A stretch of 64,000 nt of DNA, taken from Dehalococcoidia bacterium (lineage in GTDB: Bacteria; Chloroflexota; Dehalococcoidia; Bin125). The DNA lies in the NCBI GenBank assembly GCA_022826965.1, contig JAJDTU010000001.1, positions 1-64,000 of the forward strand. Reading direction: 5' to 3'. The notes under the pieces are model-generated. The model saw nothing but the letters and a program-made list of their open reading frames with translations, was not told where the DNA came from and made no database searches. Shown piece by piece: positions 1,930 to 58,769 of this stretch. The position numbers and the translations under genes were made by a program. Positions within the stretch are counted from its first letter, which is position 1. Every line of letters begins with the position of its first letter.

Positions 1930-1974
1930 TCTCCCCCCGCTTCGCGGGGGGAGATGCCGAAGGCAGAGGGGGGC
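1930..1974. repeat. Double-hairpin palindromic repeat, family A
   Basis: A GC stem (CTCCCCCCGC/GCGGGGGGAG) is followed by a small stem (TGCC/GGCA) and a GAGGGGGG tail. Near-identical copies lie at 3741, 18073, 56445 and 58723; a shorter variant is at 17501. It sits between the GNAT stop codon and the nuo promoter. Confidence 0.8.
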
Positions 1975-3740: not shown

Positions 3741-3784
3741 TCTCCCCCCGCTCCGCGGGGGGAGATGCCGAAGGCAGAGGGGGG
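3741..3784. repeat. Double-hairpin palindromic repeat, family A
   Basis: Almost identical to the copy at 1930 in the same orientation (stem CTCCCCCCGC/GCGGGGGGAG, then GCCGAAGGC, then GAGGGGGG). It lies just after the CoA-transferase stop codon. Confidence 0.8.
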
Positions 3785-5550: not shown

Positions 5551-8364
5551 TCAATCCAGCGCCCCAATCCGCGATTCCAGGTCCGCCCGCTGCCGCTGCA
5601 AGTCCGCGGCCAGCTCCTCCGCCTGCTTGACCACTTCTGCCGGAGCCTTCGAGCGGAAGCCCTCGTTGGCCAGCTTCGCCTCCGCGCCGCGCAGGCGCTT
5701 GACAATCCCCTCGAGGTCCTTGTTCAGCCGAGCCCTTTCCTGCTCCAGGTCCACCAGCCCGCCCAGCGGCAGAATCACCTCGGCCGCCGGCAGCACGGCC
5801 GAGGCAATCTGATCGGTGGGCGCCTCCCCCCGTTCGGCGACGATCGTCAGCGGCCGCGCCCGCGACAGCACTTCAACGATTGGAGCCGACGCACTCACGG
5901 CCTGAGCCACGTCCGCCTGCGGCAGCACATACGCCTCGGCCCACTGACCCGCCTGCACCCGGTAGTCCGCCCGAACCTGTCGCACGGCGGTCACAATCTC
6001 TTGCACCGCCGTGAATGCTTCCTCCGCTTCCAGGTCTCGCTCAGCGTCGCCGGGTTGCGGATAGCGCGCGCCGATCAGCGCCGTCGAGTCGGCGGCCTCT
6101 CCAAGATGCGGCCGAAGCTGCTGCCAGATCGCCTCGGTCACGAACGGCATCCACGGATGCAACAGCCGCAACCCGCCGTCCAGCACTTTGGTCAACACCG
6201 GCAATGGCGACAGATCCCCGCTGCGCAGACGAACCTTGCTCGCCTCGACATACCAGTCAAAGAACTCGCCCCACAGAAAGTCCTGGATCTGCCGGCCCGC
6301 CTCTCCAAGCTGAAACTGCCGCAGCAACTCGTCAACCGACTCCGTCACACCCTGCAACCGCGACAAAATCCACCGGTCCTCCAGCGGCAAAAGCTCCCCC
6401 TCTGGGGGGGCTGTCACGGAGCCGCCTGCCCCCGGCTCGAACGGGGGACTGAGGGGGCCCGCCGAGGCTTGCGACGCGCCCTCAATCTCGCCCAGCACGA
6501 ACTTCGCCCCGTTCCACAGCTTGTTCGCAAAGTTCCGCGACCCCTCCAGCCGCTCATCCGTCAGACGCATGTCATTGCCCGGCGTCGACCCCGTCGCCAG
6601 CGTGAAGCGCAACGCGTCCATCCCGTACTGATCCGCCTTCTCCAACGGATCGATCACGTTGTCCAGAGACTTCGACATCTTGCGACCCTGCGCATCCCGC
6701 ACCAGGCCGTGCAGATACACCGTGTCGAATGGCGCCGAGCCTATGTTGTAGCAACCCAGCATGATCATCCGAGCCACCCAGAAGAATAGAATGTCGTAGC
6801 CCGTCTCCATCACCGAGGACGGGTAGAAGCGCGCCAGGTCGTCCGAGTCGGCGTCTGGCCAGCCCAGCGTGGAGTGCGTCCACAGGCCCGACGAGAACCA
6901 CGTGTCCAGCACGTCGGGGTCCTGCACGAGATCCGCGTCGTCGCACCAGGGACACCCGGTTGGGTCGGTCATCGCGACAATCGGGCGCGCGCCTTCGTCG
7001 ATCGTGATCTCGCCGTCGTCGGCCGTGATGATCGCGTCGCCGTCGCAGCAGCGGCAGTACCAGGCCGGAATCCGGTGACCCCACCAGAGTTGGCGCGAGA
7101 TGCACCAGGGCCGGATGTTGTCCATCCACTGCAGGTAGACCGAGGTCGAGCGCTCCGGCACGATCTTGACTTCGCCATCTCGCACCACCCGCGCCGCCTC
7201 TGCCGCGATCTCGTCGGTGTCGACGAACCACTGGTTCGAGACCAGCGGCTCCACCACCACGCCCGAGCGCTGCGAGTGCCCCACGTTGTGGACGTGCGCT
7301 TCGGTCTCGACCAGGTAACCGTCCTCTTCGAGGTGCTGCGCCACCAGCGTGCGCGCCTCGTCCCGGTCCATGCCCGCATACAGTCCGGCCTCGACCGTCA
7401 ACGTCCCATCCCAGTCCACCACGCGGATCGGCTCCAGCCCATGCCGATCGCCAATCTCGAAGTCAAGCTGGTCGTGACCCGGCGTAATCTTCAGCGCCCC
7501 CGTGCCGAACTCCAGGTCGACGCCGGAATCTGCGATCAACGGAATCAGCCGGTCAAATCCCCGCAGCGGCAGCCGAACCTGACGCCCCAGGTGCGGCTGC
7601 CAGCGCTCGTCGTCCGGATGCACTGCGATCGCCACATCCGCCGGGATGGTCTCCGGCCGCGTCGTCGCGATCACGACACCGTCCTCAAGCTCGTTGCCGC
7701 GCTCATCGACGAACGGGTAGTGAACATGCCAGAGGTGGCCCTCTTCCTCCTCGTACTCAACCTCGACATCCGACAGCGCCGTCAGCATCTGCGGATCCCA
7801 GTTGATAATCCGCGCGCCCCGATAGATCTTGCCGTCCGTGAACAGGTCCACGAACGTCCTGCGCACCGCCTCGCGCGGCGTCGGATCAAGCGTGAATGCC
7901 GTGCGCTCCCAGTCGCAGGACGCCCCCATCCGCCGCGCCTGCGAGGTAATTCGAGGCCGCGTCACCCAGACCCAGTCCCAGACACGCTCCTCGAACGCCT
8001 CGCGGCCGAGATCGTGACGAGTCATTCCCTCGCGCGCGAGCTGTTGTTCGACCACGCTCTGCGTCGCGATCCCGGCATGGTCGAGCCCCGGCAACCACAG
8101 CGTCGGCTCCCCCAGCATTCGGTGCCAGCGGATCAGCGCATCCTCGATCGTCAGCGTCACCGCGTGACCCAGGTGCAGCACACCCGTCACATTGGGCGGC
8201 GGCATGATCACTGTGAATGGTTCTGCGTCGTTCTGCGACTCCTCGGCCGGACGAAACCAGCCGTTGTCCTCCCAGAAGGCGTAGATCGGATCTTCCACCA
8301 GCGACGCGTCATACGCGCCGGTCAGATCACTCAGGATCGACAGGTCGAATTCAGTAGTGGTCAC
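5551..8364 (-). CDS. valS: Valyl-tRNA synthetase with repeat-encoded insertion
   Basis: Charges tRNA-Val with valine. The 937-residue class I synthetase has the HIGH motif as HLGH (64-67, in PPPNVTGVLHLGHA), the editing domain between, KMSKS at 562-566 and the DRWILSRL helix that opens the anticodon-binding domain. The C-terminal coiled coil (about 875-935, LEQERARLNKDLEGI) is the tRNA-binding arm. About 23 residues at roughly 635-657 are encoded by a GC-rich palindromic repeat and are Pro/Gly-rich. They fall in a loop just before DRWIL, where an insert is likely to be tolerated. No T-box leader is visible in the 92 bp upstream. Confidence 0.97.
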   Translation of the reverse strand: MTTTEFDLSILSDLTGAYDASLVEDPIYAFWEDNGWFRPAEESQNDAEPFTVIMPPPNVTGVLHLGHAVTLTIEDALIRWHRMLGEPTLWLPGLDHAGIATQSVVEQQLAREGMTRHDLGREAFEERVWDWVWVTRPRITSQARRMGASCDWERTAFTLDPTPREAVRRTFVDLFTDGKIYRGARIINWDPQMLTALSDVEVEYEEEEGHLWHVHYPFVDERGNELEDGVVIATTRPETIPADVAIAVHPDDERWQPHLGRQVRLPLRGFDRLIPLIADSGVDLEFGTGALKITPGHDQLDFEIGDRHGLEPIRVVDWDGTLTVEAGLYAGMDRDEARTLVAQHLEEDGYLVETEAHVHNVGHSQRSGVVVEPLVSNQWFVDTDEIAAEAARVVRDGEVKIVPERSTSVYLQWMDNIRPWCISRQLWWGHRIPAWYCRCCDGDAIITADDGEITIDEGARPIVAMTDPTGCPWCDDADLVQDPDVLDTWFSSGLWTHSTLGWPDADSDDLARFYPSSVMETGYDILFFWVARMIMLGCYNIGSAPFDTVYLHGLVRDAQGRKMSKSLDNVIDPLEKADQYGMDALRFTLATGSTPGNDMRLTDERLEGSRNFANKLWNGAKFVLGEIEGASQASAGPLSPPFEPGAGGSVTAPPEGELLPLEDRWILSRLQGVTESVDELLRQFQLGEAGRQIQDFLWGEFFDWYVEASKVRLRSGDLSPLPVLTKVLDGGLRLLHPWMPFVTEAIWQQLRPHLGEAADSTALIGARYPQPGDAERDLEAEEAFTAVQEIVTAVRQVRADYRVQAGQWAEAYVLPQADVAQAVSASAPIVEVLSRARPLTIVAERGEAPTDQIASAVLPAAEVILPLGGLVDLEQERARLNKDLEGIVKRLRGAEAKLANEGFRSKAPAEVVKQAEELAADLQRQRADLESRIGALD
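6391..6459. repeat. Palindromic repeat inserted in the valS coding frame
   Basis: Two GC hairpins (AGCTCCCCCTCTGGGGGGGC and GCCCCCGGCTCGAACGGGGG) end in ACTGAGGGGGC. The outer parts match the repeats at 17603 and 39711, which begin with GCTCCCC/GGGGAGC and end in TGAGGGG. It keeps the valS reading frame. Confidence 0.75.
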
Positions 8365-9373: not shown

Positions 9374-12100
9374 TCAGGCCGCCTTCCCGCAACAGCGCTT
9401 GTACTTCTTCCCGCTCCCGCACGGACACGGCGCGTTCCGTCCAACCTTCTGCCCGCCCGGCGCCGTCGGCCGCGACGCCACCGCAACGCTGCCCGTCGAA
9501 GCGTCCGAGCTGCCGCCCGACTCGCGCACGTTGCTCACCCGCACCGGCGCCCCCTGCGTCGGCGGAGCGACGCCTCGCGCCCGCCGCTGCGGCGGAACCG
9601 GCGCGCCCGGCTCGTCCACCCGCAGCGTCGCATGCATCACCGAAGCCGATACCTCCCGCCGCAGCGCCGCCACGAGCTGATCGAACATGTCGAACGCCTC
9701 GCGCTTGTACGTCACCAGCGGATCCTGTTGTCCGTACGCCTGCAAGCCCACGCCCTGACGCAGGCCGTCAATCTCCGTCAGATGCCGGATCCAGAGCCGG
9801 TCCATCGTCCGTAACACCAGCCCCCGCAGCAACTCCACCGACGCGCCGTCCACCGTCCTCGTGTCGATCTTCTCCGCCAGCGTCCGCAGTTCTCCGCCGG
9901 CATGGTCCCGCAACGCCTCGACGCATTCGTCCAGTTCGGCGCCGTACAGCTCGTCACGATCCAGACCGGTCAGCGGCAGCACCTGCGCCGCCTCCTGCCA
10001 GAACTCGTCCGCCGTCGTTTCGTCCCACAGCTCATTGGCGAACGAACCCTCAAGATCCTCGATCGTATGCATCAGCATGTCTTCGACGATCTCGACCAGC
10101 TCCCCCTGCGCCGTCAACACCTTGTCGCGCTCGGTGTAGATGACCTCGCGCTGCCGGTTGATCACGTCGTCGTAGTCGACCAGGTGCTTGCGGATGTCGA
10201 AGTGATACGTCTCGACCTTCTGCTGCGCCTGCTCCAGCGCCTTGCCCACCATCCCCGACTCCAGCGGCGCGCCGTCCTCAAGCCCCGCCTTCTCCAGCAT
10301 CCCCGGCAGCCAGTCCGGCGTGAACCGCTTCATGATCCCGTCCTCGAACGAGACGTAGAAGCGCGACGACCCCGGGTCGCCCTGACGGCCCGAGCGCCCC
10401 CGCAACTGGTTGTCGATTCGACGCGATTCGTGCCGCTCCGTGCCGATCACCGCCAGACCGCCGCGCCTGGCCACGTCCTCACCCAGCTTGATGTCCGTCC
10501 CCCGGCCGGCCATGTTCGTCGCAATCGTGACGGCGCCCGGTTCCCCGGCGGCCGCGATAATGTGCGCCTCGCGCTCGTGCTGCTTCGCGTTCAACACTTC
10601 GTGACCAATCCGCCGCCGCTTCAGCATCGACGACAACCGCTCCGACGTCTCCACCGACGCCGTGCCCACCAACACCGGCCGACCATCCTGTGTCAGTTCA
10701 TCGATCTCGTCGATCGCCGCCTCAAACTTCGCCTGCTCCGTGCGGAACACCAGATCCGCCTGGTCATCCCTGACCATGTCCCGGTGCGTCGGCACCACGA
10801 TCACATCGAGCCCGTAGATCTTGTGCAACTCCTCCGCCTCGGTCGCGGCCGTTCCGGTCATCCCCGCCAGCTTCGAGTACATCCGGAAGTAATTCTGGTA
10901 CGTGATCGTCGCCAGCGTCACCGTCTCCCGCTCGACCGATACGCCTTCCTTGGCCTCGATCGCCTGGTGCAGACCCTCCGAGTAGCGCCGACCGTCCATC
11001 ATCCGCCCGGTGAACTCATCGACGATCACCACCTTGCCCCCGCGCACCACGTAATCGCGGTCCCGCTGGTACATGTAGTTCGCCTTCAGCGCCGAGTCCA
11101 GGAAGCGCGTCAACCGAGCGTTCTCACCCTCGAACAGGTTGTCGATCCCGAGGTTGTCCTCGACCCGCGCGATACCTTCCTCCGTCAGCGCCACCGTCCG
11201 CGACTTCGGGTCCGGTGTGAAGTGAGACTCCGGCTGCAGACCGCGCACCAGATTCGCGAACACGCGGTACGTATCCAGCGACTCCTCCGCCTGACCGGAA
11301 ATGATCAGCGGCGTCCGAGCCTCATCAATCAAAATGTTGTCGACCTCGTCCACGATCGCGTAGGCCAGCGGCCGCTGCACCTTCTCCCTCGCGTCCATCA
11401 CCATGTTGTCGCGCAGGTAGTCGAAGCCAAACTCGTTGTTCGTCCCGTACGTGATGTCCGCCCGGTACGCCTCCTGGCGCGGCACTGGCCGCAGCATCTT
11501 CAGGTCGCCCAGTTCGCGTCGACGCCGCAGCTCTTCTTCGTCGAGCGACTCCGGATTCTCGATATCCACCGTCGAGTCCGCCTCCGGATCGAACATGAAC
11601 GCCGCCCGATGCTGCAACACCCCAACCGACAGCCCGAGCGAGTGATAGATCGGCGCCATCCACTGCGCGTCCCGCTTGGCCAGGTAGTCGTTCACCGTGA
11701 TCAGGTGCGCCCCGTCGCCTTCCAGCGCATTCAGGTAGAGCGCCAGCGTCGCCACCAGCGTCTTGCCCTCGCCCGTCCGCATCTCCGAGATCTTGCCCTG
11801 GTGCAGCACGATCCCGCCCACGATCTGCACGTCGTAGTGCCGCATCTGCACCTGCCGCCGCGCCGCCTCACGCACGACCGCGAACGCCTCCGGCAGGATG
11901 TCGTCCAGCGACGCCCCGTCCTCAAGCCGCTCGATGAACTCGCTCGTCTTGGCCGCCAGTTCGTCGTTCCGCAGACGAGCAAACTCCGGCTCCCACTCCG
12001 CCACCGCCGCAACCGCCCCCTGCAGCCGGTTCACCTCGCGGGCGTTCGCATCCCCCAACAGAGACCCCGCCCGCTGCTTCGCCCGATCAAACAAACCCAT
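9374..12100 (-). CDS. secA: Preprotein translocase ATPase SecA
   Basis: Motor ATPase that pushes unfolded secretory proteins through SecYEG. It has the Walker A-like MRTGEGKT, Walker B-type DEVDNILIDEAR, the helicase motif TNMAGRGTDIKL and a C-terminal zinc-binding SEC-C motif (CPCGSGKKYKRCC) for SecB or phospholipid contact. I start it at the ATG at 12100 (MGLFDRAKQ, 908 residues) because GGGGA lies 7 bp upstream; an in-frame ATG at 12118 is possible. The first 11 codons and the upstream sequence are duplicated at about 14377-14468. Confidence 0.97.
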   Translation of the reverse strand: MGLFDRAKQRAGSLLGDANAREVNRLQGAVAAVAEWEPEFARLRNDELAAKTSEFIERLEDGASLDDILPEAFAVVREAARRQVQMRHYDVQIVGGIVLHQGKISEMRTGEGKTLVATLALYLNALEGDGAHLITVNDYLAKRDAQWMAPIYHSLGLSVGVLQHRAAFMFDPEADSTVDIENPESLDEEELRRRRELGDLKMLRPVPRQEAYRADITYGTNNEFGFDYLRDNMVMDAREKVQRPLAYAIVDEVDNILIDEARTPLIISGQAEESLDTYRVFANLVRGLQPESHFTPDPKSRTVALTEEGIARVEDNLGIDNLFEGENARLTRFLDSALKANYMYQRDRDYVVRGGKVVIVDEFTGRMMDGRRYSEGLHQAIEAKEGVSVERETVTLATITYQNYFRMYSKLAGMTGTAATEAEELHKIYGLDVIVVPTHRDMVRDDQADLVFRTEQAKFEAAIDEIDELTQDGRPVLVGTASVETSERLSSMLKRRRIGHEVLNAKQHEREAHIIAAAGEPGAVTIATNMAGRGTDIKLGEDVARRGGLAVIGTERHESRRIDNQLRGRSGRQGDPGSSRFYVSFEDGIMKRFTPDWLPGMLEKAGLEDGAPLESGMVGKALEQAQQKVETYHFDIRKHLVDYDDVINRQREVIYTERDKVLTAQGELVEIVEDMLMHTIEDLEGSFANELWDETTADEFWQEAAQVLPLTGLDRDELYGAELDECVEALRDHAGGELRTLAEKIDTRTVDGASVELLRGLVLRTMDRLWIRHLTEIDGLRQGVGLQAYGQQDPLVTYKREAFDMFDQLVAALRREVSASVMHATLRVDEPGAPVPPQRRARGVAPPTQGAPVRVSNVRESGGSSDASTGSVAVASRPTAPGGQKVGRNAPCPCGSGKKYKRCCGKAA

Positions 12101-12170
12101 CCAACCATCCCCAATCAATCAGCCCCCCAGCAGGGCACACAAATCCAGTGTAACGGGCGAAGAGCGACCC

Positions 12171-14272: not shown

Positions 14273-14295
14273 GGCATAGAGACGCAACCGAGCCC

Positions 14296-14358
14296 CGCCA
14301 GGTTCCCCTACCGGAACAGCGCCCCCACCGAATCCCCCTCATGAATCCGCCGGATTGC
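14296..14358 (-). pseudogene. Duplicated 3' end of prs
   Basis: About 63 bp nearly identical (about two mismatches) to the prs 3' end and downstream sequence at 16238-16300. It encodes IRRIHEGDSVGALFR and the same TAG stop as prs. It joins in frame to the duplicated secA start. The rest of prs is absent. Confidence 0.9.
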
Positions 14359-14409
14359 CACGACCCGCCGACACACCGCCCGCTGCTTCGCCGGATCAAA
14401 CAAACCCAT
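14308..14409 (-). CDS. 33-codon chimeric ORF: SecA N-terminus fused to Prs C-terminus
   Basis: An intact small frame starts with MGLFDPAKQRA (the SecA N-terminus with one change), passes through a seven-residue junction (VCRRVVA) and ends with IRRIHEGDSVGALFR (the exact Prs C-terminus). The GGGGA ribosome-binding site of secA is kept upstream. It probably has no function; it records a recombination junction. The odd fact is that both reading frames have survived. Confidence 0.6.
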   Translation of the reverse strand: MGLFDPAKQRAVCRRVVAIRRIHEGDSVGALFR

Positions 14410-14468
14410 CCAACAGTCCCCAATCAGGCAGCCCCGCACCAGGGGCACACAAAACCAGTGCAACGGCG
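14377..14468 (-). pseudogene. Duplicated secA 5' end and upstream region
   Basis: About 90 bp match secA codons 1-11 and the leader at about 12068-12157, with scattered mismatches and one small gap. It lies between the propeller 2 stop codon and the prs fragment, in the place secA occupies after propeller 1. Confidence 0.85.
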
Positions 14469-16216: not shown

Positions 16217-16250
16217 ACCAGGGGAACGCTACTGTCTCCGCCAGGTTCCC

Positions 16251-17198
16251 CTACCGAAACAGCGCCCCCACCGAATCCCCCTCATGAATCCGCCGGATCG
16301 CCTCACCGAGCAGCGGCGCGACCGACACCACCTCCAGCCCGCAGCCCGACCCGTTCGACTTCGGCGGCAGCGTATCCGTCACCACCACCTGGCCGATTGG
16401 GCTCGCGTCCAGACGCTCCAGCGCTGGATCCGACAGCACTCCGTGCGTCGCCGCCCCGTAGATCCGCTGCGCGCCCTCCGACCTCAGCAGCTCCGCCACC
16501 TGCACCAGCGTCCCCGCGGTGTCGATCTCATCGTCGATGATCAGCACGTCGCGACCGGCCACTTCCCCGATCAACTGCATCACCTCCGACTGGTCCTCGT
16601 TCCCGCTGCGCCGCTTCTCCGTGATCGCCAGGGGCATGTGCAACCGGTCCGCCGCCGCCCGCGCCCGCTTGGCCGAGCCCAGGTCCGGCGAGACCACCAC
16701 GCCGTTGAACTCCTGCTCGGCGAAGTGGTCGATCAGCAGCATCTGACCCGTCAACTCGTCCGTCGGAATGTGGAAAAACCCCTGAATCTGCCCCGCGTGC
16801 AGGTCCATCGTCAGCATCCGGTCCGCGCCCGCCGTCTGGATCAGGTCGGCGAACAACCGCGCGGTAATCGGCACCCGAGGCTGGTCCTTCTTGTCCGACC
16901 GACCGTAGGCGAAGTACGGCACCACCGCCGTGATCCGCCCGGCCGACGCCCGTCGCGCGGCGTCGATCATGATCAGCAGCTCAACCAGGTGGTGGTTGAC
17001 CGGCTTCGCCCCCGGTTGGATCAGGAACACGTCCCGCTCACGGATGTTCTCCAGGAACTGCACGAACGTGTTGCCGTTGGCGAAGTCGAACACGTTCGCG
17101 CAGCCCAGCTCCACATCCAGCGCCGAGCACACATCCTGCGCCAACTGAGGATGCGCATTCCCTGTGAACACCGCCGGATCGCCCACATACCGACTCAT
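16251..17198 (-). CDS. prs: Ribose-phosphate pyrophosphokinase
   Basis: Makes PRPP from ribose 5-phosphate and ATP for nucleotide, His and Trp synthesis. The 315-residue protein has the usual length, the catalytic loop segment VVPYFAYGRSDKKDQ, and the PRPP-binding motif DVLIIDDEIDTAGTL. The last 15 codons are duplicated at 14308-14358. A 630-bp repeat-rich gap lies upstream. Confidence 0.96.
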   Translation of the reverse strand: MSRYVGDPAVFTGNAHPQLAQDVCSALDVELGCANVFDFANGNTFVQFLENIRERDVFLIQPGAKPVNHHLVELLIMIDAARRASAGRITAVVPYFAYGRSDKKDQPRVPITARLFADLIQTAGADRMLTMDLHAGQIQGFFHIPTDELTGQMLLIDHFAEQEFNGVVVSPDLGSAKRARAAADRLHMPLAITEKRRSGNEDQSEVMQLIGEVAGRDVLIIDDEIDTAGTLVQVAELLRSEGAQRIYGAATHGVLSDPALERLDASPIGQVVVTDTLPPKSNGSGCGLEVVSVAPLLGEAIRRIHEGDSVGALFR

Positions 17199-17500: not shown

Positions 17501-17730
17501 AACCCCCTCTGTCGCTACGCGACATCTCCCCCTTGGAACGGGGGAGAAATTTGGGAGGAGACCTCTCGATAGGTCGCAGCGCCAGACGCGATCCGAATTT
17601 GCTCCCCTTCCCAAGGGGAGCTCCCGCGAAGCGGGTGAGGGGTTCCCCCGGCGACCCCCTCTGTCACCACGTTCCCCTCTCCTCTCCTACCCCCTCTCCC
17701 TCTGGGAGAGGGCCTGGGTGAGGGTCCCAA
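17501..17730. repeat. Cluster of palindromic repeats of several families
   Basis: The 632-bp gap from prs to 17831 has no convincing gene apart from these elements. A short family A copy in reverse orientation is at about 17501-17549. A third-family copy is at about 17603-17668 (GCTCCCC...GGGGAGC, GCGAAGCGGGTGAGGGG). A family B hairpin is at about 17690-17730 (CCCTCTCCCTCTGGGAGAGGG then TGGGTGAGGGT, the first split here as two arms of one stem). The remaining bases from 17731 to 17830 are C/A-rich and show nothing else. Confidence 0.7.
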
Positions 17731-17830: not shown

Positions 17831-18172
17831 ATGCCCAACCCCTACCACTTCCGAGCGCGCATCGACCGTCTCTGGCGCCGAGCCAACAGCTCCCTCCCTG
17901 GCTACATCCGGCTCAAGGCCCTCGACACCGTCGCCCGGGAACTCTACCGCCCCACCGACAAAGCCCGCCAAAACCTCAAGATGTACCTCGCCACCGACCC
18001 CTACGAAGTCGCCCGCCACAAACTCCGCCACCTCCACGACCAACCCGGAGCCGAAGTCGCCCCCGAGTTCCCTTCTCCCCCCGCCTGCGGCGGGGGGAGA
18101 TGTCTCGTAGAGACAGAGGGGGGCCTCCCACAGGACGAGCAACCACCCGACGAGGACGACGACCCCCTATAA
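17831..18172 (+). CDS. Small hypothetical protein with repeat-derived C-terminal segment
   Basis: A 113-residue frame beginning MPNPYHFRARIDRLWRRA, with GAGGAG about 8 bp before the ATG. The first 75 residues are basic, look helical and have a coding-like composition (for example YIRLKALDTVARELYRP). Residues about 80-100 are encoded by a family A palindromic repeat, and the end is acidic. I know no family for it. It stands alone between the prs and groESL loci. It may be a real small gene whose 3' end was replaced by the repeat, or a chance frame. Confidence 0.45.
   Translation: MPNPYHFRARIDRLWRRANSSLPGYIRLKALDTVARELYRPTDKARQNLKMYLATDPYEVARHKLRHLHDQPGAEVAPEFPSPPACGGGRCLVETEGGLPQDEQPPDEDDDPL
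18073..18124. repeat. Double-hairpin palindromic repeat, family A, inside a small ORF
   Basis: Stem CTCCCCCCGCC/GGCGGGGGGAG, second stem TGTCTC/GAGACA, tail GAGGGGGG. The second stem differs from the GCC/GGC of other copies but still pairs, a compensating change that argues for selected structure. Confidence 0.75.
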
Positions 18173-39710: not shown

Positions 39711-39814
39711 GAGCTCCCCATCCTGGGGAGCTGGCGCGGAGCGCCTGAGGGGGCGCACGCCAACGTTGAGGCCCCCATCCGTCACTTCGTGACACCTCCC
39801 CCTGTAAGGGAGGT
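39711..39814. repeat. Two palindromic repeats between rdgB and the aldolase gene
   Basis: A third-family copy (GAGCTCCCC...GGGGAGCTGGCGCGGAGCGCC split arms, then TGAGGGGG) at 39711-39753 is followed by a shortened family A copy (GTCACTTCGTGAC, then CCTCCCC/GGGAGG) at about 39772-39814. They fill almost the entire 126-bp gap. Confidence 0.7.
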
Positions 39815-52474: not shown

Positions 52475-53788
52475 TCACTGTGATCGTTGGGGCGCAAACG
52501 TTGCCGCCGTTCGTGGATCCGACCCAGCCAGCTTTCGGACCACGACCGGCCAGAAGAAGATCACCACCAGCATCAACGCAAACGCTTCGATCACGACCGA
52601 GATCACCCCCCCCTGGATCCCGAACCACTCGAACATGAAGAAGACCTGCAGGCCGGTCACCGGACCCATCCCGATCACCATCGAGAGCACCCCCATCACC
52701 CGACCGCGCATTTCGGCCGGCGTGCGCGTGACCAGCAAGGCCGTCTGCATGATCGCGAACGCGGAGAAGCCGAAGCCCATGCAGAACGAAATCAGCATCG
52801 ACAAGGGGTACCACGGAGAGAGCACCATGCCCAGTACACAGAGGATGAACCACGCCGTGCCGGCGTAGTAGATGCGGCCCGACTGTCCCCAGCTGCTCCA
52901 GCCCGCGATCGCCAGCGCGCTGACGAACGAACCCGCCCCGACCAACGCCTCAAGCACACCGATCCGCAGTTTGTCGACGCCAAGCAGCTCTTGACCGATG
53001 TCCGGCAGCGCGGCCGCGTACGCGGGGAAGAGCAGATTGAACGCGAGCGTCACCCCCAGGGTGCCGAGCAGCAACTCGCTTCTGCGGATGTAGCTGAATC
53101 CGTCCCGGATGTCGCGCCAGGTCTGCCTGGCGACCTCTCCGAACCCGCTGGCCGACCCGCGGCGAAGCGGCGGACGGTAGCTCAGCGTCGTGGCGATCAT
53201 TGCCGAAACGATGAACGCGCAGGCGGTGAATAGGTAGGCCCACTCGGCGCCCAGTTCCTGCAGCAATCCCGCGCCGATCAGCGGCCCCGGAATGCGTACG
53301 ATCGAGTCGGTCGACCAGTCCAGACCGACGGCGCGACCGACCTGGTGCGGCGCGACGACGTCTGCGATCATCGCCCGGCGGGTGGGAAACTCGACCGACC
53401 AGACCGTCCCGGCGATGAAGACGAACCCCAGCAGCAGCCAGAAATCGATTCCCTCCAGCATCACGTAGGCCGTCAGGGCGAAGTACATGACGGACAGGAT
53501 CAACAGCGAGGCGATCCAGATTTTCTTGCGGTTGAAGCGATCGGCCAGTGCGCCGACGAACATCCCGAACAGCAGCCTCGGTGCCATGCGGACAAGGAAC
53601 GCGAGCGCCACAAAGGCGGCAGCCTCCGCCAGGTCCCTGGCAAACAGTGTGAGCACCAGCATGTCGAGCCAGCGCACCATGCCGGTCACGGCGCCGGCCG
53701 CCCAGACCCGGCGAAAGTCGGGATTGGCTACTAACGCACCAACACCCTGGCCCCGTCGACTTGCAGGTGGCCCGACCCGCAGGCTCAC
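52475..53788 (-). CDS. Major facilitator superfamily transporter
   Basis: 437 residues with about twelve hydrophobic helices. The loop motif GALADRFNRKKIW after helix 2 is the MFS signature, and a weaker one lies at TRTPAEMRGRVMGV. The layout resembles the EntS/MFS_3 exporter group, so export of a small molecule is the best guess. It begins with a GTG that overlaps the stop of the first PPOX gene (GTGA), tying the exporter to that set. Confidence 0.88.
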   Translation of the reverse strand: MSLRVGPPASRRGQGVGALVANPDFRRVWAAGAVTGMVRWLDMLVLTLFARDLAEAAAFVALAFLVRMAPRLLFGMFVGALADRFNRKKIWIASLLILSVMYFALTAYVMLEGIDFWLLLGFVFIAGTVWSVEFPTRRAMIADVVAPHQVGRAVGLDWSTDSIVRIPGPLIGAGLLQELGAEWAYLFTACAFIVSAMIATTLSYRPPLRRGSASGFGEVARQTWRDIRDGFSYIRRSELLLGTLGVTLAFNLLFPAYAAALPDIGQELLGVDKLRIGVLEALVGAGSFVSALAIAGWSSWGQSGRIYYAGTAWFILCVLGMVLSPWYPLSMLISFCMGFGFSAFAIMQTALLVTRTPAEMRGRVMGVLSMVIGMGPVTGLQVFFMFEWFGIQGGVISVVIEAFALMLVVIFFWPVVVRKLAGSDPRTAATFAPQRSQ

Positions 53789-54339
53789 CTCACCGCCTGA
53801 GCCTCCTGTGCGGCCTGATGTGCTGTCTGGTGCTCGCGGTCGCTGCGCTTGCCCCGATACACGCTCAGATCGATCGCGCGCCAGACCTCAGGCGTGACCT
53901 TGAACAGCATGCGCGGCTCGGTCTGCATGTTGGCGAAGAAGGCGTCGACGGCGGCGGCGTTGTCCGGATCGCCCTGACCGACGTACTTCTCGGCCAGCCG
54001 GCGCGATACCGGCCAGATATCGAAGTCGGGCAGCGTCAACGCCTCGGCCGTGCCGTCGATCTCTACGTGCTGAGACGGAGGACCGGATGTCTCGATGCAA
54101 AACGACATCCGAGGATCATTCATCAACTGCTTGCACCACACACGCCCCAGCGTGCCGGTCAGCCAGAGATGTCCCGTCGGCGGATTGCGCAGCGGGTGGG
54201 CGTCCTCGGAGATATCGCCCTCCCAGAGGAACCAGAGCGGCACCGTGTACGGCCGCCCGTCCTGCCGCAGCGTCGCCAGCACGCCCATGTAGGGCTGCTC
54301 CATGAACTCCCGCCAGGCGTCCGGTCGCATTCGAGCCAT
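53785..54339 (-). CDS. PPOX-class (split beta-barrel) flavin/F420-binding protein, copy 1
   Basis: 184 residues. The fold of pyridoxamine-phosphate-oxidase-like proteins is shown by GVLATLRQDGRPYTVPLWFLW and MSFCIETSGPPSQHVEIDGTAE. Members bind FMN, F420 or haem. I chose the ATG at 54339, with AAAGGAG 6 bp upstream. It is one of three neighbours sharing EKYVG-GDP and a conserved LFKVTP motif near the end. It has an extra basic C-terminus not seen in the other two. Confidence 0.85.
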   Translation of the reverse strand: MARMRPDAWREFMEQPYMGVLATLRQDGRPYTVPLWFLWEGDISEDAHPLRNPPTGHLWLTGTLGRVWCKQLMNDPRMSFCIETSGPPSQHVEIDGTAEALTLPDFDIWPVSRRLAEKYVGQGDPDNAAAVDAFFANMQTEPRMLFKVTPEVWRAIDLSVYRGKRSDREHQTAHQAAQEAQAVR

Positions 54340-54419
54340 GTCACTCTCCTTTGAGGGCCAGTGTTTCAACGCATCAGGATTGGATCGAGGGTAAGTCAAC
54401 GGTCCGTATGCGGGTGCCG

Positions 54420-54923
54420 CTACCCTTCCCGCCCCGCGCCCAACTCAGACAGGTCAACCGCCCGCCAGCGATGCGGCGTGACCTTGAACAACATCCGAAC
54501 TTCTGACTGCATCATCTCGAGGTATCCGTCCACCGCCTCGGCGTTCGCCGGATCGCCGCGACCGACGTACTTCTCAATGATCCGCCTCATGATCGGCCAG
54601 ATATCGAACTCATCGGGCATGTGCGGTTCGACGGTTCCGTCGACACCCACGTGCTGGCTCGGCGGTCCGGCCGTGTCGATGCAAAACGACATCGCGCTGG
54701 TGTTGAGCAGGTGCTTGCACCAGATCCGTGTCGGCGATCCGGTCAGCCAGATGTGTCCCCGCGGCGGATTGCTCGACGGATGCATCTCGTCGGGCACCTC
54801 GCCCTCCCACAGATACCAGAGCGGGATCGTGTACGGGGTGCCATCTCGGCGCAGTGTCGCCAACACGCCGGAATAGGGCTGCTCGAAGAAGTCACGCAGG
54901 ACCTCGGGCCTCATCTCGAACAT
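54420..54923 (-). CDS. PPOX-class flavin/F420-binding protein, copy 2
   Basis: 167 residues, colinear with the copies on both sides. It has GVLATLRRDGTPYTIPLWYLW, IWCKHLLNTSAMSFCIDTAG, YVGRGDPANAEAVDGYLE and MLFKVTPHRWRAVDLSE. It keeps the strands expected for flavin binding. An in-tandem duplicate of copies 1 and 3. Confidence 0.85.
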   Translation of the reverse strand: MFEMRPEVLRDFFEQPYSGVLATLRRDGTPYTIPLWYLWEGEVPDEMHPSSNPPRGHIWLTGSPTRIWCKHLLNTSAMSFCIDTAGPPSQHVGVDGTVEPHMPDEFDIWPIMRRIIEKYVGRGDPANAEAVDGYLEMMQSEVRMLFKVTPHRWRAVDLSELGAGREG

Positions 54924-54944
54924 CGACTGCTCCTCGCCAATGCC

Positions 54945-55448
54945 TCACAGATCTTGACCTGCCTCAAACTCGGACAGATCAATCGTGCGCCACTGCTTCG
55001 GCGTCACCTTGAACAGAATGGGCGACATCGAACGCGTCGTCTCCATGTACTGATCGACTTCCTGATCATTGGCCGGGTCGCCTCTACCGACGTACTTCTC
55101 CACCAGGCGACGCATGATCGGCCACGGATCTGTGTCCGCCGCCGACAAGACCTCGACCGTCCCGTCGATCCCTACGTGCATGGCCGGCGGGCCCTCGACA
55201 TCGATGCAGAGCGACATCCGCGGATCGTGTTGCAGGTGCCGGACCCAGGTGCTCGTCGCCCCACCCAGGAACCAGGCGTGGCCGCTGGGCGGATTCTGGG
55301 TGGGATGAACGTCGGCCGGCACCGCGCCTTCCCACAGGTACCAGAGCGGAATCGTGTACGGGCTGCCGTCGCGCCGCAGCGTCGACAGGACGGCGGGCAA
55401 GGGTCGATCAAGGAACTCGCGCAGAACCTCGGCTCGCATTTCAAACAT
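54945..55448 (-). CDS. PPOX-class flavin/F420-binding protein, copy 3
   Basis: 167 residues, the same length as copy 2 with 21 bp between them. It has AVLSTLRRDGSPYTIPLWYLW, RMSLCIDVEGPPAMHVGIDG and ILFKVTPKQWRTIDLSEFE. Differences lie mainly in the loop after the barrel (FLGGATSTWVRHLQH), which could alter substrate choice. The BKACE gene lies 14 bp upstream, so the four and the MFS gene read as one operon. Confidence 0.85.
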   Translation of the reverse strand: MFEMRAEVLREFLDRPLPAVLSTLRRDGSPYTIPLWYLWEGAVPADVHPTQNPPSGHAWFLGGATSTWVRHLQHDPRMSLCIDVEGPPAMHVGIDGTVEVLSAADTDPWPIMRRLVEKYVGRGDPANDQEVDQYMETTRSMSPILFKVTPKQWRTIDLSEFEAGQDL

Positions 55449-56420: not shown

Positions 56421-56497
56421 GCCCTCTCCCTCTGGGAGCGGGGAGGCCCCCCTCTGTCCCTACGGGACATCTCCCCCCGCCTGACGGCGGGGGGAGA
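56421..56497. repeat. Palindromic repeats, family B then family A (reverse orientation)
   Basis: A partial family B hairpin (CCCTCTCCCTCTGGGAGCGGGG) is followed by a full family A copy, GGCCCCCCTCTG...GACATCTCCCCCCGCC/GGCGGGGGGAGA. In this copy the second stem is TGTCCC/GGGACA, again a paired variant. Confidence 0.75.
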
Positions 56498-57300: not shown

Positions 57301-57337
57301 GCCCTCACCCTAGCCCTCTCCCTCGGGGAGAGGGGAG
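57301..57337. repeat. Palindromic repeat, family B
   Basis: GCCCTCACCCTAGCCCTCTC followed by CCTCGGGGAGAGGGGAGC: the inverse form of the copies near 3880 and 17690. Confidence 0.65.
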
Positions 57338-58722: not shown

Positions 58723-58769
58723 GGCCCCCCTCTGCCTTCGGCATCTCCCCCCGCTCCGCGGGGGGAGAG
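58723..58769. repeat. Double-hairpin palindromic repeat, family A (reverse orientation)
   Basis: Starts one base after the stop codon of the LLM gene and is the exact inverse form of the copy at 3741. The rest of the gap to 58871 shows nothing else. Confidence 0.8.

Follow-up and report, generated by a model that had tools for sequence, protein, structure and literature searches.

The valyl-tRNA synthetase (ValRS) gene in the window, the whole 64,000-nucleotide stretch of a Dehalococcoidia bacterium contig that was analyzed, contains a palindromic repeat inserted in frame. The repeat belongs to a multi-copy family, and its host gene encodes an essential enzyme. Probably, the inserted DNA represents one copy of a palindromic repeat that is lineage-specific and non-autonomous. 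Comparison of sequences across the phylum suggests that repeats from unrelated families have entered the same ValRS linker on several occasions, a pattern that was missed in the first-pass annotation of this DNA.

The open reading frame matches Pfam domains tRNA-synt_1, Anticodon_1 (at 663-811) and Val_tRNA-synt_C, and the best match to a solved structure is Thermus thermophilus ValRS (1gax, E 1.5e-207). The insert (∼67 nt, ∼23 codons) is read in frame as the 23 amino acids GPLSPPFEPGAGGSVTAPPEGEL. Anticodon_1 starts directly after it, which agrees in both size and place with the initial description of about 23 added residues just before the anticodon-binding domain. Between NFANKLWN (final helix of the catalytic portion) and DRWILSR (the anticodon-binding domain) there are 44 residues in the window ValRS, and 26-29 in most relatives outside the genus and in three species of the same genus, a net gain of ∼15-18 residues. 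When aligned with 1gax, the gap at the insert is 21 residues. In the AlphaFold model, residues 635-656 form a loop with pLDDT <50 between helices 603-633 and 661-682; this is consistent with a flexible linker, although low pLDDT is no proof of disorder.

Evidence that the insert is repeat DNA was obtained from sequence identity. The insert combines two hairpin units, and over its whole length it matches a composite intergenic repeat of a genome of the same genus (G008) with a score of 65.5; the best score among 300 dinucleotide shuffles was 37. The core pattern of the family, CCCTCWGYC..GRCAKCTCCCC, was found in at least 128 exact copies in the window genome, and the reversed control pattern gave 0. 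Similarity to intergenic repeats of the window, also part of the first description, was borne out by the copies listed in Table 1. The folding energy of the window ValRS copy was not beyond that of codon-shuffled sequence (z ∼0). Since this value is ordinary, the hairpin alone proves nothing, whereas repeat identity does, and folding energy was dropped as evidence for the insert.

Table 1. Features of the ValRS gene and copies of the palindromic repeat in the window.
Feature	Position	Strand	Basis or details
ValRS gene	5551..8364	-	937 aa, GTG start; ORF, Pfam, 1gax match
Palindromic element in ValRS, type A orientation	6393..6459	-	Sister-ValRS alignment, composite-copy match, predicted loop
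Hairpin 2 of ValRS element	6393..6411	-	Coding-strand sequence GCCCCCCCAGAGGGGGAGC
Nested 24-nt palindrome within hairpin 1	6423..6446	-	24-column gap in sisters
Intergenic copy	1931..1973	-	nhmmer E 3.2e-11
Intergenic copy	3742..3784	-	nhmmer E 3.2e-11
Intergenic copy	17503..17545	+	nhmmer E 3.2e-6
In-frame copy inside small ORF 17831-18172 (+)	18076..18123	-	nhmmer E 1.8e-8
Two degenerate adjacent intergenic copies, opposite orientation	39715..39806	.	Sequence; weak nhmmer match for one
Intergenic copy	56447..56497	+	nhmmer E 2.6e-8
Intergenic copy	58725..58767	+	nhmmer E 5.1e-10

The consensus order of the repeat is CCCCCCTC, hairpin 1, TCTCCCCCCGC..GCGGGGGGAGA, GGGGA, with a core of 42-50 nt. 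The two hairpins of the core sit between CCCCCCTC and GAGAGGGG ends (also written CCCCCCTCTG...GAGAGGGG), and these consensus ends form terminal inverted repeats that are short and consist partly of G/C runs. Exact copies numbered from 9 to 246 in 14 of the 15 genomes of the genus that were searched (own included), the fifteenth being G007 with none. Outside the genus, the core pattern was found 0 times in other genera save for one match in G018. The short GC-rich form of the element contains no stop codon in any of the six frames, so orientation hardly matters for its insertion; longer forms are open in most frames. Among the loci read in G008, three hold head-to-head pairs of elements around a similar spacer of ∼45 nt (L149:1437-1636, L149:5304-5500 and L150:3012-3211), an arrangement that appears REPIN-like.

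No offset or length gave clearly more identity between element flanks than between shuffled flanks, as would be expected of a target-site duplication, and no target motif was found. Of 100 copies, at most 4 had GTAG close to one end, and ∼4 had CGTC there. The search for a mobilizing enzyme covered the Y1 transposase family (PF01797, RAYT) alone; it gave no match in the own genome and one marginal match within the genus, in G008. No Rfam model matched the window at gathering score. A second repeat, CCCTCACCC..CCCTCTCCC..GGGAGAGGG, is present in the window at 17692-17724 and 57302-57334; it has 45 copies in the window genome and is shared with distant Chloroflexota. The window also contains three consecutive genes of ∼170-180 amino acids (53785-55448) whose DNA is 67-71% identical, a tandem triplication, and two pairs of near-identical DNA segments (12061-12135 with 14370-14444, 88%; 14295-14359 with 16238-16302, 97%).

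Placement of the repeat was determined for 118 distinct exact copies from contig C14 and from stretches around listed copies, with genes predicted by a codon-based caller that had been trained on C14 (90% coding). Chance placement would put most copies inside genes; 103 were intergenic, 5 were at gene edges and 10 were in called frames. Of 100 intergenic copies, 25 lay between convergent genes, an arrangement seen in 18 of 204 gaps (p 0.0003), and the copies show a preference for 3′ ends and convergent pairs. Between tandem genes, one orientation was favored (42 vs 19, p 0.004). The genome-wide count of copies inside genes, which the first reading had proposed as a check, thus gave about 10 of 118 in open frames, with more than one frame and both orientations used.

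The in-frame copies include those in the interdomain linker of three tandem CoA_transf_3 fusion proteins, in a loop within one domain of methylenetetrahydrofolate reductase (MTHFR), in a pair of HTH/SEC-C proteins and in a small-protein family. The MTHFR loop is 27 residues long in G000 and G010 versus 14 in G001, G005, G008, G009, G011 and G012 (+13 amino acids). Small ORFs carrying the element are less certain as genes. One of them, the 113-amino acid ORF listed in Table 1, has its C-terminal part encoded by the element (SPPACGGGRCLVETEGG..EDDDP), and the element occupies a matching place in two further ORFs of the window genome (L080/L081, which overlap as one ORF, and L113). Whereas this ORF and its paralogues may encode a genuine family of small proteins, they may equally be spurious. 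In other genomes of the genus, in-frame elements were found in long open frames with weak HemN_C/VWA_2 matches (L203 and L206, from G002 and G010) and in a DUF255 (Thioredox_DsbH) protein of G005 (L207). All genomes compared are draft assemblies, and some break at or near the repeat (contigs C143/C103 of G006 in ValRS, contigs C18/C26 of G003 in MTHFR); intragenic copies are therefore probably undercounted.

The ValRS loop could be read in 14 genomes of the genus. Five loops are of type A, in which hairpin 1 comes first (G000, G005, G009, G011 and a remnant in G001), five are of type B, with the opposite orientation (G002, G003, G004, G010 and G014), one (G008) holds both types and three (G007, G012 and G013) are empty, as are those of three other genera of the family. 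Some relatives lack the insert, as had been predicted, and the case in which all relatives share the loop and have no repeat-like DNA is excluded by these same loops. The empty loops contain no remnant and have the length seen in other genera. All type A copies have TCGGAGGGCCCCCTCAG, or a close variant, as their 5′ junction, whereas the type B copies resemble one another at the 3′ junction, where GAGGGGGG precedes SPLE codons. A length of 34 residues is seen in several loops of each type. In G014, what looks like an older degenerate element lies ahead of the type B copy. The nested 24-nt unit is in frame and, among the type A loops aligned, is present in the window species alone; G005, G009 and G011 have an exact 24-column gap at this position. 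The same nested unit is found within intergenic copies of G008.

A loop-masked ValRS tree required at least seven state changes, a count that comes from ValRS alone, on a tree poorly resolved inside the genus, and that cannot separate gain from loss. Only some branches are well supported, among them two sister pairs that differ in loop state: the empty G013 groups with G010, of type B (support 100/100), and G005, of type A, groups with the type B species G014 (95/100). The suggestion that the repeats moved recently is borne out only between species, by the nested 24-nt event and the differing sister pairs.

Palindromes of other families were found in the same linker elsewhere in the phylum. 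In G026, from another family of the class, CCCTCACCCCGGCCCTCTCCCAGAGGGAGAGGG is present in the linker and belongs to a repeat with 43 copies in its genome. That of G143 holds GTAGGGGCGATTCGTGAATCGCCC, a shortened GTAGGGGCG palindrome whose complete form occurs at 11 sites of the G143 genome. The linker of G257 has perfect 22-nt arms (z -8.7), and that of G419 has 17-nt arms (z -7.5), with a shorter relative (13-nt arm) in its congener G462; no such palindrome was present in the part of the loop read in G215 and G225, of the same genus. A strong hairpin (z -5.8) is also present in G214. The palindrome of G214 was rejected as a repeat, since a search of its genome allowing 2 mismatches gave a single copy. 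That of G257 was rejected as an exact repeat: the pattern used gave mostly scattered imperfect matches, with three related tandem copies GGGGCGGGCACAAGGCCCGCCC. In a sample of 400 genomes of the phylum, the long-loop pattern was found in 12, and most of the others among these 12 look ordinary. Because ValRS was chosen where the window pointed and was the sole linker scanned, this rate cannot yet be called exceptional.

These observations could be accounted for if copies were spread by a trans-acting enzyme or a replication-linked process and insertions into genes were mostly purged. Survivors would be frame-keeping copies in disordered linkers, such as the one that joins the catalytic core of ValRS to its anticodon-binding domain, and the stop-free short form would ease insertion in either orientation. 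A resident element could then receive further insertions, giving the nested unit of the window species and the double elements of G008 and G014, or could decay by in-frame deletion, as in G001. We propose that the linker is a recurrent acceptor because it is tolerant, rather than because of its target sequence. The insert is presumably translated as part of ValRS; the earlier statement that the repeats tolerate translation agrees with open frames in an essential gene, translation itself being deduced from the reading frame. A broader reading, which we regard as unlikely, is that of a phylum-wide acceptor linker entered, stacked upon and left repeatedly by independent palindrome families, each supplying new protein sequence, possibly with a site preference set by a shared mechanism beyond mere tolerance.

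Other histories were weighed against insertion of a mobile repeat. The insert might have entered once, in the ancestor of the genus, and then descended vertically with three losses; ectopic recombination or template switching with the many genomic copies would have replaced its type and orientation, and new insertions would have been few or absent. The junctions common to each type, the 34-residue loops of both types and a pattern of presence and absence on the ValRS tree that fits one gain and three losses all agree with such a history. We nonetheless consider it unlikely, since the nested unit and the double elements need later insertions, the empty loops have no remnant and the length of those in other genera, and unrelated families in the linker of other families and classes cannot be explained in this way. 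It is quite improbable that the hairpin itself is under selection, as an mRNA structure that slows ribosomes at a domain boundary and thereby helps ValRS to fold, with different lineages recruiting any palindrome available. Different palindromes do occur at one ValRS boundary, and the three CoA-transferase copies are at a domain boundary as well. Against this, most relatives have no hairpin there, the fold energy of the window copy is ordinary, the G001 copy decays and the MTHFR copy is in a loop within one domain.

Artificial joining of repeats inside the gene during assembly is very improbable: the assemblies are draft metagenomes, and those of G006 and G003 do break at the repeat, yet more than 10 species, each assembled separately, keep an open frame, and in these the sequence is specific to the species and the flanks are intact. 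It is scarcely credible that this is just an ordinary, variable linker rich in Pro and Gly, with GC-rich DNA that looks like a repeat by chance. The length of the linker does vary across the phylum, and several long loops have no strong palindrome, but the match to a composite genomic repeat far exceeds that of shuffles, and the nested difference from sisters is exactly 24 nt. Insertion of a repeat copy remains our preferred reading. It extends to Chloroflexota the Rickettsia observation of selfish palindromes in essential proteins, and a single ValRS site offers, among close relatives, empty and filled alleles as well as inverted, nested and decayed ones. With these, tolerance versus targeting, and repeats as a source of protein sequence, can be tested by comparison and in the laboratory.

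Rickettsia palindromic elements (RPEs; Ogata et al. 2000, reviewed in PMC2229807) are short multi-copy palindromes of 105-146 bp, found in frame in conserved protein genes and between genes, and have no known enzyme; a CGTC end is reported for those of R. conorii (PMC3733652). The RPE likeness drawn in the first-pass annotation holds for function: the Chloroflexota repeat is also short, palindromic, multi-copy and intergenic, and is found in frame in conserved protein genes (ValRS, MTHFR and the CoA-transferase fusions). It does not hold for membership, as judged by length (core of 42-50 nt, ValRS copy of ∼67 nt) and end tag. By description the repeat is set apart from RPEs, being from another lineage, mostly intergenic and without the CGTC end. 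GTAG/CGTC REPs (Di Nocera et al. 2013, PMC3733652) are hairpins located mostly between genes near 3′ ends or convergent genes; they form dimers in opposite orientation, and some are inside genes, including tRNA synthetase genes (in Xanthomonas oryzae, Erythrobacter litoralis and Sphingopyxis alaskensis) and approximately the same recB site in two Xanthomonas species. The Chloroflexota family resembles them in its hairpins, its placement, its dimers in opposite orientation and the presence of some copies inside genes, but has neither tag, and the window genome has no RAYT (PF01797), so a RAYT-driven REP was rejected. Recurrence in Chloroflexota, moreover, spans several repeat families at one ValRS linker. 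The head-to-head pairs resemble REPINs of Pseudomonas (PMC3116915), but are known from G008 and not from the window genome, and the family has no associated RAYT. MITEs share terminal inverted repeats with the family, which differs in having no detectable target-site duplication. With tags, RAYT and target-site duplications absent, the repeat is RPE-like in its working and not a member of any such family. No paper on ValRS with palindromic inserts was found in the literature, the supplementary lists of PMC3733652 being outside the coverage. Relative to these systems, three things appear new: the occurrence in Chloroflexota, a series of alleles at a single site, and unrelated palindromes converging on the same linker of ValRS.
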